From the NCBI GenBank assembly GCA_015064295.1, contig SVSM01000003.1, forward strand, positions 1 through 64,000: DNA of 64,000 nt, written 5' to 3'. Below, piece by piece: positions 1-41,976 of this stretch. The translations under genes and the position numbers were made by a program. How positions within the stretch are numbered: position 1 is the stretch's first letter; each line of letters starts with the position of its first letter. This DNA is from Oscillospiraceae bacterium (GTDB taxonomy: Bacteria > Bacillota > Clostridia > Oscillospirales > CAG-272). The notes under the pieces were generated by a model. The model was not told where the DNA came from. It searched no databases and worked only from the letters and a program-made list of their open reading frames with translations.

Positions 1-524
1 AATGTGAAGTATCCTCGGAGCAACGGGTCGATTCTTTGATGTTCTTCCTCCGCCTTTTCAAGAGTTCTCACAAAGCAATCATACCCATATGTGTCTGCAA
101 GATACGGAATTCCTGCAACCGACAACAAGTAGTTATAGTCAATATAGTCATGATTCTTTTCGAGGTTTTTTCGAAATTTCTCCATTACCGGATTTAATTC
201 TTCCTCTGAAGCATAAATTGCATATCCGCGAATATAAAAAATCTTCATTGCAAGTCTGTGGCATTTTTTCAAATTTTCAAAATAGAACTCTTTCAGATCA
301 AATGCTTTTGCAGAGGGATTGAGTAACAGAATGCGAAGATGATCGAATCGAATTTCCCAGATATGTTTTTTTGAAGTAGCTTTATCGCAGAGATAATCAA
401 TAAGTTCTTGTGATAGTTCTATATTGTATAGTTTATTTAGATTGGCAATGTAATCAGGATGCAGTAAGCAATCGGAACACTTTTTAAAAGTGCGTTCTAA
501 CTCTGATAATAGGCAGTTATCCAT
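1..524 (-). CDS. Hypothetical protein, partial (runs off window start), AT-rich
   Basis: Manual reverse-complement translation from ATG at 524: MDNCLLSELERTFKKCSDCLLHPDYIANLNKLYNIELSQELIDYLCDKATSKKHIWEIRFDHLRIL... open to base 1. RBS-like ggagg upstream. Missing from ORF track, probably because it has no stop in the window. Confidence 0.75.
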   Translation of the reverse strand, partial: MDNCLLSELERTFKKCSDCLLHPDYIANLNKLYNIELSQELIDYLCDKATSKKHIWEIRFDHLRILLLNPSAKAFDLKEFYFENLKKCHRLAMKIFYIRGYAIYASEEELNPVMEKFRKNLEKNHDYIDYNYLLSVAGIPYLADTYGYDCFVRTLEKAEEEHQRIDPLLRGYFT

Positions 525-660: not shown

Positions 661-724
661 AATAGAATTTAATTGATAATTTGCAAATTCATCTTCAAAA
701 AGTTCTCAAATAAGCTGACTTTAG

Positions 725-776
725 GCATAAAATAACCGTCATTCCGTTGTTTCAGAATGACGGTTATTCTTTGGCG
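725..776 (-). repeat. Hairpin repeat, copy 1 (inverted relative to the copy at 12309..12359)
   Basis: Reverse complement CGCCAAAGAATAACCGTCATTCTGAAACAACGGAATGACGGTTATTTTAT matches the sequence after tRNA-Ser(TGA) with one mismatch over about 50 nt. Confidence 0.85.
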
Positions 777-1147
777 TAGAAAGAGAGATTCTTGCAGACG
801 GGGCTTTGCCCCTTACTACCCCGAGAATGCTACGCATTCTCGATTTCGACTCACTCAAGTCCTCCGCCAAAAAATAGCCACCCTTTTGGGGGGGCGTAGA
901 AAGAGAGATTCTTGCAGACGGGGCTTTGCCCCTTACTGCCCCTAGAATGCTACGCATTCTCGATTTCGACTCGCTCAAGTCCTCCGCCAAAAAAATAGCC
1001 ACCCTTTTGGGGGGGCGTAGAAAGAGAGATTCTTGCAGACGGGGCTACGCCCCTTTCTGCCCCGAGAACGCTACCGCATTCTCGATTTCGACTCACTCAA
1101 ATCCTCCGCCAAAAAAATAGCCACCCTTTTGGGGTGGCTATTTTTTT
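773..1147 (-). repeat. Three tandem ~120-134 bp hairpin-rich units carrying tRNA-Ser 3'-end-like sequence
   Basis: ggcg[t/g]agaaagagagattc recurs at 773, 893, 1014 and 1148 (the last is the real tRNA). Each unit contains GCATTCTCG/CGAGAATGC and GGGGC/GCCCC hairpins. Confidence 0.9.
1111..1147 (-). terminator. Terminator-like hairpin after tRNA-Ser(GCT)
   Basis: aaaaaaatagccacccttttggggtggctattttttt. Confidence 0.75.
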
Positions 1148-1237
1148 GGCGGAGAAAGAGAGATTCGAACTCTCGCGCCGGTTTCCCGACCTACACCCTT
1201 AGCAGGGGCGCCTCTTCACCAACTTGAGTACTTCTCC
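1147..1237 (-). tRNA. tRNA-Ser (anticodon GCT), CCA encoded
   Basis: Reverse complement GGAGAAGTACTCAAGTTGGTGAAGAGGCGCCCCTGCTAAGGGTGTAGGTCGGGAAACCGGCGCGAGAGTTCGAATCTCTCTTTCTCCGCCA; long variable arm, TTCGAAT T loop. Confidence 0.93.
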
Positions 1238-1398: not shown

Positions 1399-2625
1399 AT
1401 GTTAAACAAGCCACTGGCCGACCGTGTTCGACCGACCTCCTTTGATGAAATGGTGGGACAGAGCCACCTCTTCGGTGAGAACGGCACGGTGCGGAAGATC
1501 TGTGCCGAGCACTATCTTCCCAACATGATCTTTTACGGCCCACCCGGCACCGGTAAGACCACGGCGGCGGGTATCATTGCGGCGGGCTCAGGCATGACGC
1601 TCCGCCATCTCAACGCCACCTCGGCGTCGCTTTCCGACGTCAAGGACGTGGTGGCCGAGACGGGGACGCTCCTCGGCAGCGAGGGGATCCTCCTCTATCT
1701 TGACGAGATCCAATACTTCAACAAAAAGCAGCAGCAGTCCCTGCTTGAATACATCGAGGACGGGCGCATCACGCTGATCGCCTCCACCACCGAGAACCCC
1801 TATCTCTACGTCTACAACGCCATTCTCTCCCGCTCGGCGGTGTTTGAGTTCAAGGCGGTGTCGGCTATCGAGATCCTGCCCGCTCTGCGCCGTGCCATGG
1901 GCGTGTTAAACACCGAAACGGGACGGGAGAAGACGGTCACCGACGAGGTGCTGACGTACATCGCAGGTGCGGCGGCCGGAGACGTTCGGCGGGCGGTGAA
2001 CCTGCTGGAAAACACCTATTTTACCGCCGGCAAGGAGCTGACCAAGGAAGCCGTCCGGGCCTTTACCCCCTCGGTGATCGGCAACTTTGACAAGAGCGGC
2101 ACGGTGCATTACGATCTGCTATCGGGGCTGCAAAAATCCATTCGCGGCTCCGATCCCGACGCGGCCATCTTCTATCTGGCCAAGATCCTTGAGGGCGGCG
2201 ATCTCATCGGTGCCTGTCGGCGCTTGCAGGTGATCGCCTGCGAGGACATCGGCCTTGCCTATCCGCAAGCGGCGCAGATCGTCCTGTCCTGCGTGCAGAT
2301 GGCCAACAACCTGGGCCTGCCTGAGGCGCGGATCCCCTTGGCCGAGGCGACGGTGCTGCTTGCTACCGCGCCCAAGTCCAACAGTGCCTATCTGGCCTAC
2401 GCGGCGGCCGCCGAGGACATTGCGGCGGGGAAGGGGCAGGTCATGCCGCCTTATCTTCGTCCCTCCAATCAGTTCGACGGCTACAAGTATCCCCACGATT
2501 ACGAGAACCATTACGTCAAGCAGCAATATCTGCCCGACGATCTGAAAAACGCTGCCTACTATACCTACGGTGACAACAAGACCGAGCAGGCCGCCAAGAC
2601 CTACTGGGAGAAGATCAAGAAATAA
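1399..2625 (+). CDS. rarA: Replication-associated recombination protein A (AAA ATPase, RarA/MgsA)
   Basis: MLNKPLADRVRPTSFDEMVGQSHLFGENG...MIFYGPPGTGKTT; C-terminal YKYPHDYENHYVKQQYLPD typical of RarA. Confidence 0.93.
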   Translation: MLNKPLADRVRPTSFDEMVGQSHLFGENGTVRKICAEHYLPNMIFYGPPGTGKTTAAGIIAAGSGMTLRHLNATSASLSDVKDVVAETGTLLGSEGILLYLDEIQYFNKKQQQSLLEYIEDGRITLIASTTENPYLYVYNAILSRSAVFEFKAVSAIEILPALRRAMGVLNTETGREKTVTDEVLTYIAGAAAGDVRRAVNLLENTYFTAGKELTKEAVRAFTPSVIGNFDKSGTVHYDLLSGLQKSIRGSDPDAAIFYLAKILEGGDLIGACRRLQVIACEDIGLAYPQAAQIVLSCVQMANNLGLPEARIPLAEATVLLATAPKSNSAYLAYAAAAEDIAAGKGQVMPPYLRPSNQFDGYKYPHDYENHYVKQQYLPDDLKNAAYYTYGDNKTEQAAKTYWEKIKK

Positions 2626-30409: not shown

Positions 30410-31153
30410 TCACATCCCCGCCACGAACAGGACGGCCAGAAGCAGCAGAGCGTCTCGGCAGTCGGTCTCGCCGTCGTCCTGCTCGTGAAGGAGAAAGAGG
30501 AGCAGGCCCAGGAGGAGCAGATCGTCCTGCCGCAGAGCAAGGATCGAAAAGGGCAGGGGGGAGTGGCTTTGGGTGCCGTCGGCGGATACGGCTTCGGAGG
30601 GTGCGGAATCGGGAAACGAGCGCGCAGCTCCTTCCGATGGCTCTTTTCCGTCAAGCAGATCGGTAAAAGCACCGAGGGGAGGGCTGCCGAGGCTACCGAG
30701 GGGAGGGTTGCCGGGACTGCCGAGGGGAGGGTTGCCAAGACCGCCGAAGGGAGGGGCTCCCAGCGGATCCCGACGGTCATCGGGGGAGGGCTTGGCTTCC
30801 TCGGGACGGCGGGGATCGTAATCGGGCGGTGTCGGCATAGAGGGCGCCGTCATGACGGGATTCCGCCTGCCCGAGAAGCGAGGGCTGCTCGGTCTTGCCC
30901 GGCGAGGCGGACGGATCCCTTGGGGCGGTGCCTCTCCCGGAGAGGGCCGGCCGGCAGGAGGGCTCGGCGGCGTTGCGCCGGGCATGGGACTTTGCTCCGA
31001 CGAGAGGGGCGGGGTGGGTACGACGGGCGGCTCGGGACGGGGCGGCGCAGGCTCCGGCTCGGGCTGGGGGATCACCAGGGCCGTTCCGCCGTAATCGGGG
31101 GGGATGGGGCGGGAGGTAATGCCGGGGCGGCTTCCGTAGCTTCGTGTGTACAT
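30410..31153 (-). CDS. Pro/Gly-rich protein with Leu-rich acidic C-terminal motif
   Basis: 247 aa; (G)xxGNPPLGSPGNPPLGSLGSPPLG repeats; C-terminus ALRQDDLLLLGLLLFLLHEQDDGETDCRDALLLLAVLFVAGM. Confidence 0.6.
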   Translation of the reverse strand: MYTRSYGSRPGITSRPIPPDYGGTALVIPQPEPEPAPPRPEPPVVPTPPLSSEQSPMPGATPPSPPAGRPSPGEAPPQGIRPPRRARPSSPRFSGRRNPVMTAPSMPTPPDYDPRRPEEAKPSPDDRRDPLGAPPFGGLGNPPLGSPGNPPLGSLGSPPLGAFTDLLDGKEPSEGAARSFPDSAPSEAVSADGTQSHSPLPFSILALRQDDLLLLGLLLFLLHEQDDGETDCRDALLLLAVLFVAGM

Positions 31154-37382: not shown

Positions 37383-37535
37383 GGGCGGACGGAGGCTCAT
37401 CGGGCGGACGGAGGCTCATCGGGCGGACGGAGGCTCATCGGGCGGACGAAGGCTCATCGGGCGGACAGAGCGCTCGCCATGCGGATGGAGGTTCGTCAGG
37501 CAGACGAAGGTTTGCCATGCGGACGGAGGTTCGCG
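37383..37535 (+). repeat. ~19-bp tandem repeat (minisatellite), about 8 units
   Basis: gggcggacggaggctcatc x3, gggcggacgaaggctcatc, then degenerate units to gcggacggaggttcgc. Confidence 0.9.
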
Positions 37536-41604: not shown

Positions 41605-41656
41605 GGAGGAGGCCGTGTCAAGGGACTTGACACGGCCTCCTCCTTTGGTATATAAT
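41605..41656 (+). promoter_or_regulatory. Perfect 18-bp inverted repeat overlapping a sigma70-type promoter
   Basis: GGAGGAGGCCGTGTCAAG-gga-CTTGACACGGCCTCCTCC; TTGACA 41627-41632, 18-bp spacer, TATAAT 41651-41656. Confidence 0.8.
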
Positions 41657-41667
41657 ATGTCTGTCTT

Positions 41668-41890
41668 ACCGAGGGGCAACGCCGAAAGCGTTTCAATAAG
41701 GAATCCCGGTGAAAATCCGGAGCGAGCCCGTCGCCGTGAGCAGGGAACAAGGAAGACTGCCGTCCTCCTCCGCAGGGAGGGCGGGACAAGCCATTGCGTC
41801 TGCCCGTTTTAAGGCAAGCGTGAGAAGGTGTCTTTCTCCGCGTAAGCGTCACCTGCGCAGTCGGAAGACTTACCCCGAAGACCGCAGAAG
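41668..41890 (+). promoter_or_regulatory. Cobalamin (AdoCbl-type) riboswitch
   Basis: AATAAGGAATCCCGGTGAAAATCCGGAGCGAGCCCGTCGCCGTGA ... AAGCCATTGCGTCTGCCCG ... B12-box-like GCAGTCGGAAGACTTACCCC. Confidence 0.88.
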
Positions 41891-41976
41891 CCGCGATGTC
41901 CGGCGCCGAAGGGATGCGGAAACGGCAGGACAAATGAAAAAATGGGGATTTCCCCAACATGAAAGGAACATATGAC

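Follow-up and report, generated by a model that had tools for sequence, protein, structure and literature searches.

Short hairpin cassettes bearing the adjacent tRNA's own tail form a tandem array behind tRNA-Ser(GCT) in an Oscillospiraceae bacterium

A 120-nt repeat occurs in three head-to-tail copies directly 3' of tRNA-Ser(GCT) in an Oscillospiraceae bacterium (contig SVSM01000003.1, positions 1 to 64,000; "the window" is this whole stretch of 64,000 nt). Each unit consists of a hairpin-rich body followed by a duplicate of the 19-20 nt that end the adjacent tRNA, from the T-loop to the CCA. The array is best read as three gene-less cassettes stacked at the tRNA 3' end by insertion and accretion, a reading with a probability of roughly 0.5. 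It is supported by the fixed extent of the tail copy, by the presence of one body family behind different RNA genes, by variation among congeners, and by restriction to a single lineage. tRNA genes are classic landing sites for islands, and a known tRNA integrase is as a rule tied to one tRNA. Against the insertion reading stand the use of four RNA genes by one body family and an inverted T-arm copy that is absent or weak at several isotypes.

The tandem repeat spans 773-1138 (Tandem Repeats Finder; period 120, 3.0 copies, 94% matches, score 653), so that the triple array of ~120 bp originally predicted at this tRNA is real. The features, with the body of the array units named FamA and its search model R1, are as follows.

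1147-1237, reverse strand: tRNA-Ser(GCT) (ARAGORN; Rfam RF00005, 51.3 bits); its last 20 nt, 1147-1166, GAATCTCTCTTTCTCCGCCA, are copied in every unit
1110-1147, reverse strand: full intrinsic terminator of tRNA-Ser(GCT), a 23-nt perfect inverted repeat
1014-1110, reverse strand: unit 1, the tRNA-proximal variant, with left arm and two hairpins; tail copy GAATCTCTCTTTCTACGCC at 1014-1032 (R1, 95.6 bits)
989-1013, reverse strand: internal terminator remnant, left arm of the hairpin missing (sequence comparison)
893-988, reverse strand: unit 2; tail copy at 893-911 (R1, 97.0 bits)
869-892, reverse strand: internal terminator remnant, left arm missing as in 989-1013 (sequence comparison)
773-868, reverse strand: unit 3, distal; tail copy at 773-791 (R1, 99.3 bits)
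724-772, reverse strand: terminator-like hairpin of the ATTCTGAAACAACGGAAT type closing the array (inverted repeat I4)
1-524, reverse strand: partial gene P0001, between units 3 and 4; 205 aa once joined to contig C2

Read from the tRNA, the order is tail, full terminator, and three units, all of which sit 3' of that terminator, whose palindrome reaches into the tRNA tail (CTCCGCC...GGCGGAG). As predicted, the three repeats start at 773, 893, and 1014. Their tail sequence occurs again in the true tRNA (1142-1166), giving spacings of 120, 121, and 134. The units are 96-97 nt each and contain no recombinase gene. All three share the layout left arm, hairpin CGAGAATGC/GCATTCTCG, second hairpin, GTCTGCAA, and GAATCTCTCTTTCTACGCC, and both the tail copy and the tRNA itself are possible pairing partners of the left arm. 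The leftmost two units are 91% identical to each other; the variant unit noticed earlier is the tRNA-proximal one. A ATTCTGAAACAACGGAAT-type hairpin is also found after tRNA-Ser(TGA) in the window.

Both hairpins of the original prediction, GAGAATGC/GCATTCTC and GGGGC/GCCCC, were found and are conserved in the units, and their pairing covaries across FamA copies: 93% of cells are paired, and covariation is 0.157 versus 0.080 in shuffles (0/500), in an alignment of only ten related sequences. The units had further been described as tRNA-Ser-like cloverleaves. Since ARAGORN and RF00005 detect nothing in them, they are not, and the suggestion of a tandem pseudo-tRNA duplication falls as well, the duplicated tRNA part being just ~20 nt. 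A small structured RNA family was another suggestion, which is partly supported as to structure, given the covarying hairpins, and not as to a known family: when the window, the array, and 16 related loci were scanned against Rfam, the bodies matched none above the gathering score.

The assembly of the source genome (G000) is a draft of 46 contigs with a completeness of 78.5%. The first 14 nt of the window overlap the start of contig C2; the putative join would complete the 205-aa P0001 and lead on to a fourth unit, as suggested by this short overlap and by a P0001 homologue in genome G024 that aligns throughout. The G024 homologue follows a tRNA-Ser tail array. P0001 has no Pfam match and was rejected as regular cargo, as homologues occur in 6 of 248 family genomes, and G000 and G024 are the only ones in which they lie close to a Ser tail array. 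On the other side of the tRNA, a RarA-like AAA gene (window 1399-2625; L116) lies divergent and upstream of tRNA-Ser(GCT) in G000 and G001; in G011 it lies downstream of the array, suggesting an inversion at the tRNA.

The extent of the tail copy is sharply defined. Across 33 tail copies, from eight tRNA isotypes and tmRNA, identity to the respective tRNA stays within 0.85-1.00 over positions 1-19, counted from the 3' end, then falls to 0.64 at position 20, 0.30 at position 21, and background beyond; the alignment used a 20-nt anchor, which conditions the inner identity and not the abrupt stop. The profile thus breaks at position 20-21, which places the junction inside the T-loop. Copies of a gene's own tail (score >=28) are found behind 32 of 133 tRNA/tmRNA genes, a non-random sample enriched for positives; the controls gave 0 for the tails of other tRNAs and 3 for upstream sequence. 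At tRNA-Ser and tRNA-Gly units, an inverted T-arm copy comes right after the terminator; Met, Arg, Ala, Trp, and Pro units show it weakly or not at all. Among loci not chosen by this pattern, the inverted own T-arm is associated with genes that have a tail copy (p=7e-4) and not with genes that have none (p=0.64). The tRNA-Gly(CCC) units of G000 are minimal, with little beyond terminator, inverted T-arm, and tail, in tandem, and at L200 and L206 the inverted tRNA copy extends to ~36 nt.

FamA occupies several RNA genes. In G000 it is found behind tRNA-Ser, twice behind tRNA-Met, and once with a tRNA-Ala-type tail, and in the congener G003 behind tRNA-Ser, tRNA-Met (truncated), tRNA-Ala, and tmRNA. 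In each case the 3' end of the unit copies the local RNA gene's own tail, the truncated tRNA-Met copy being the sole exception. Dispersed copies are tied to tRNA/tmRNA 3' ends; the original prediction had named dispersed repeats lacking this association as evidence against itself. A search with R1 of 9 genus and 198 family genomes gave strong matches only in G000 and G003; the lone weak match, in G213, is a tRNA-Trp tail cassette.

Cassettes of the same plan and other sequence lie behind Ser, Met, Gly, Arg, Pro, Trp, and Glu tRNAs. G000 alone has further tail copies behind tRNA-Pro, Arg(CCG), Arg(ACG), and Gly(CCC), and behind tRNA-Trp after a 1.2-kb insert; a body named FamE is common to this tRNA-Trp and to tRNA-Glu of another assembly. 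At L057 (G000:C46), the sequence between tRNA-Arg(ACG) and the end of the contig holds no fewer than two tandem units and then a third terminator, and such repeats may break assemblies at tRNAs. Copy number, whose invariance in the absence of structural covariation would likewise have counted against the prediction, differs among congeners, from 0 to 1, 2, or 3 units at one tRNA. Behind tRNA-Met, G000 has two FamA units and G003 a single truncated one, G006 has three tandem units of a body unrelated to FamA, and G001 has one unit of the G006 body. No unit is visible downstream of tRNA-Met in G002, G004, G005, and G008, whose distal flanks differ, and a clean empty site with identical flanks was not found.

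Such cassettes are confined to one lineage. About 7 of ~50 tRNA-Ser(GCT) loci of the bacterial family have a tail copy within 300 nt, and upstream and reverse controls at these loci gave none except real tRNAs. Among 85,462 species genomes, tRNA-Ser followed by an inverted T-arm was found at 21 loci; every one comes from a Clostridia/Oscillospiraceae/Ruminococcus assembly, and most of the assembly titles give a gut origin. An exact-tail pattern gave 0 matches in 396 genomes of the order and 398 of the phylum, a pattern that misses even the window's own units (CTACGCC), so that this zero carries no information. No copy was found in phages or plasmids, and the Ser pattern had no match in IMG/VR. 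No description of such arrays was found in the open-access literature, and tRNA-tail cassette arrays appear not to have been described before.

Given a tail copy of fixed extent with its junction in the T-loop, which is the trace of site-specific insertion at a tRNA, insertion followed by accretion is favoured. Iterated insertion at a tRNA att site, one of the readings first proposed for this array, is accordingly the best-fitting of them, and it also fits the intact proximal tRNA, the gain and loss among congeners, and the occurrence of one family behind several RNA genes. The ssrA islands of Dehalococcoides, compared below, and the large serine recombinases next to tRNA-Ser in G024 and G001 also speak for it. 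Under this scenario, each cassette would have entered or been copied in with duplication of the T-loop-to-CCA tail (~20 bp, often with the terminator), keeping the tRNA intact and pushing the older tail outward. A recombination process may recognise the T-arm and tail as an att-like site, and the cassettes, as non-autonomous hairpin elements, may be moved in trans, as integrases move islands at tRNA/tmRNA genes. Once two tails were present, unequal recombination between tail-terminator repeats could multiply the units, which would account for the identical terminator deletion in the spacers that precede units 2 and 3. The inverted T-arm that is common at the left end of tRNA-Ser units would aid recognition or folding. 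Neither a recombinase or transposase nor an excised form could be tied to the units.

The inverted T-arm copies can also be accommodated by replication template switching, which we regard as rather unlikely. In this scheme, the terminator hairpin folds the polymerase back so that the tRNA 3' end is copied inverted; a flip-back at the palindromic T-loop (TTCGAA) then has the tail recopied, giving terminator, inverted T-arm, and tail, and tandem slippage finally multiplies the units. Template switching is documented as a maker of hairpins (PMC8794818), and the minimal tRNA-Gly units, the long inverted copies at L200 and L206, and the association of the inverted own T-arm with tail copies are all consistent with it. 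However, it leaves unexplained how one body (FamA, or FamE at Trp and Glu) came to lie at different RNA genes and genomes. The confinement to a single lineage also counts against it, because T-loops and terminators are universal. Insertion and template switching may have acted together.

A different origin, as att-site remnants of larger serine-recombinase islands that have lost their genes, is distinctly improbable, even though large serine recombinase elements occupy tRNA-Ser(GCT) in G024 and G001 and a degenerate serine recombinase gene abuts the G000 FamA-like copy with the tRNA-Ala tail. Bodies conserved across tRNAs and genomes are not expected of random deletion remnants, and the recombinase element at the Ala copy has just ~7 nt of tail in common. 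The elements of G024 and G001 lie at L153 11235-12863 and 10276-11169 and at L156 8950-10707, and one tRNA-Ser(GCT) recombinase element carries a REP_ORF2-G2P replication protein. That the units act as a functional structured RNA, serving tRNA-Ser maturation or termination as a trailer or decoy, would agree with the covarying hairpins and with the pairing capacity of the left arm, but a full terminator precedes the array, the tail copy is present at so few of the family's tRNA-Ser(GCT) loci, and bodies are not alike between congeners, all of which makes such a role very unlikely. Least credible of all is an assembly artefact or a plain tandem duplication of no wider meaning: the fragmentary draft genome would allow for it, but numerous other assemblies, and other tRNAs, have independent arrays of the same plan.

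The insertion reading can be set beside several known systems. The ssrA islands of Dehalococcoides have a 20-bp direct repeat of the ssrA 3' end, a junction in the T-loop, and a serine recombinase (DsiB) (PMC3146451). The array shares with them the 20-bp RNA-gene 3' repeat, the T-loop junction, and tandem accretion downstream of an intact gene. In contrast, those islands are kilobase-sized, many with an integrase module, all at one gene, and none duplicated within a strain, whereas the present units measure ~100-250 nt, carry no genes, occur repeatedly, and lie at many tRNAs as well as at tmRNA. With its outer direct repeat of ~20 bp and its T-loop junction, the array resembles tRNA-island accretion in how it works, yet it has no integrase gene. 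Integrative elements targeted to tRNAs in general draw their att direct repeats from the tRNA 3' tail and restore the tRNA; here too, the tail serves as an att-like core and the tRNA is restored, although no integrase is seen, size differs, and one body family has several targets. MITE and REP-type palindromic repeats are short, non-coding, hairpin-rich, and dispersed within a genome, as are the FamA copies of G000 and G003. The units differ from them in being tied to tRNA/tmRNA 3' ends and in carrying the host RNA gene's tail. Their flanking repeat (tail, often with terminator) is of tRNA origin, and no autonomous parent element was found for them.

One short non-coding family behind Ser, Met, and Ala tRNAs and tmRNA, each time with the matching tail, is hard to explain by ordinary integrases, and how the target's own end gets copied becomes testable. 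These cassettes may, though less probably than not, represent a new kind of minimal mobile element in gut Clostridia, gene-less and palindromic, that lands on any tRNA/tmRNA T-loop-to-CCA tail, adopts the tail of the gene entered, and may be mobilised by a protein encoded elsewhere, either a recombinase or one of the S23/IVP-type four-helix kind. The arrays also provide a fast-changing marker in uncultured gut bacteria.

Intervening sequences of 23S rRNA with an S23 protein (PF05635) are known, for example, from Coxiella (PMC4990558). The units could be ruled out as such a sequence, which lies inside the rRNA and is excised by RNase III, as they sit 3' of a tRNA terminator. Both kinds of element occur at structured RNA genes; unlike the rRNA intervening sequences, the units encode nothing and lie downstream of the RNA, and the link is one of neighbourhood only, PF05635 genes also crowding behind tRNAs here. 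In six family genomes, 14 of 17 23S_rRNA_IVP (PF05635) genes, with two longer reading frames set aside, directly follow a same-strand tRNA or tmRNA gene, an arrangement with a chance of ~1e-23 under a uniform model assuming 48 tRNAs per 2 Mb. Elsewhere in the phylum, a tRNA was present in the fetched flank at 0 of 30 loci, so the association is specific to this bacterial family, and it offers a lead on the role of the PF05635 protein family. At tRNA-Tyr of G022, a non-coding unit lies between the tRNA and the PF05635 gene, which suggests that newer material appears nearer the tRNA. The PF05635 genes behind tRNA or tmRNA genes (L209-L217, L220, L222-L224, L227) are often preceded by a terminator bearing a TTTGTCTACC(G)GACAAA hairpin and by a series of palindromic repeats; one stretch, L073 797-866, scores as the Rfam Gut-1 RNA. 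Elsewhere in the window, short tandem repeats (19 and 24 nt) occupy 37383-37534 and 30671-30755, and a Cobalamin riboswitch (RF00174, 48.7 bits) lies at 41655-41891.
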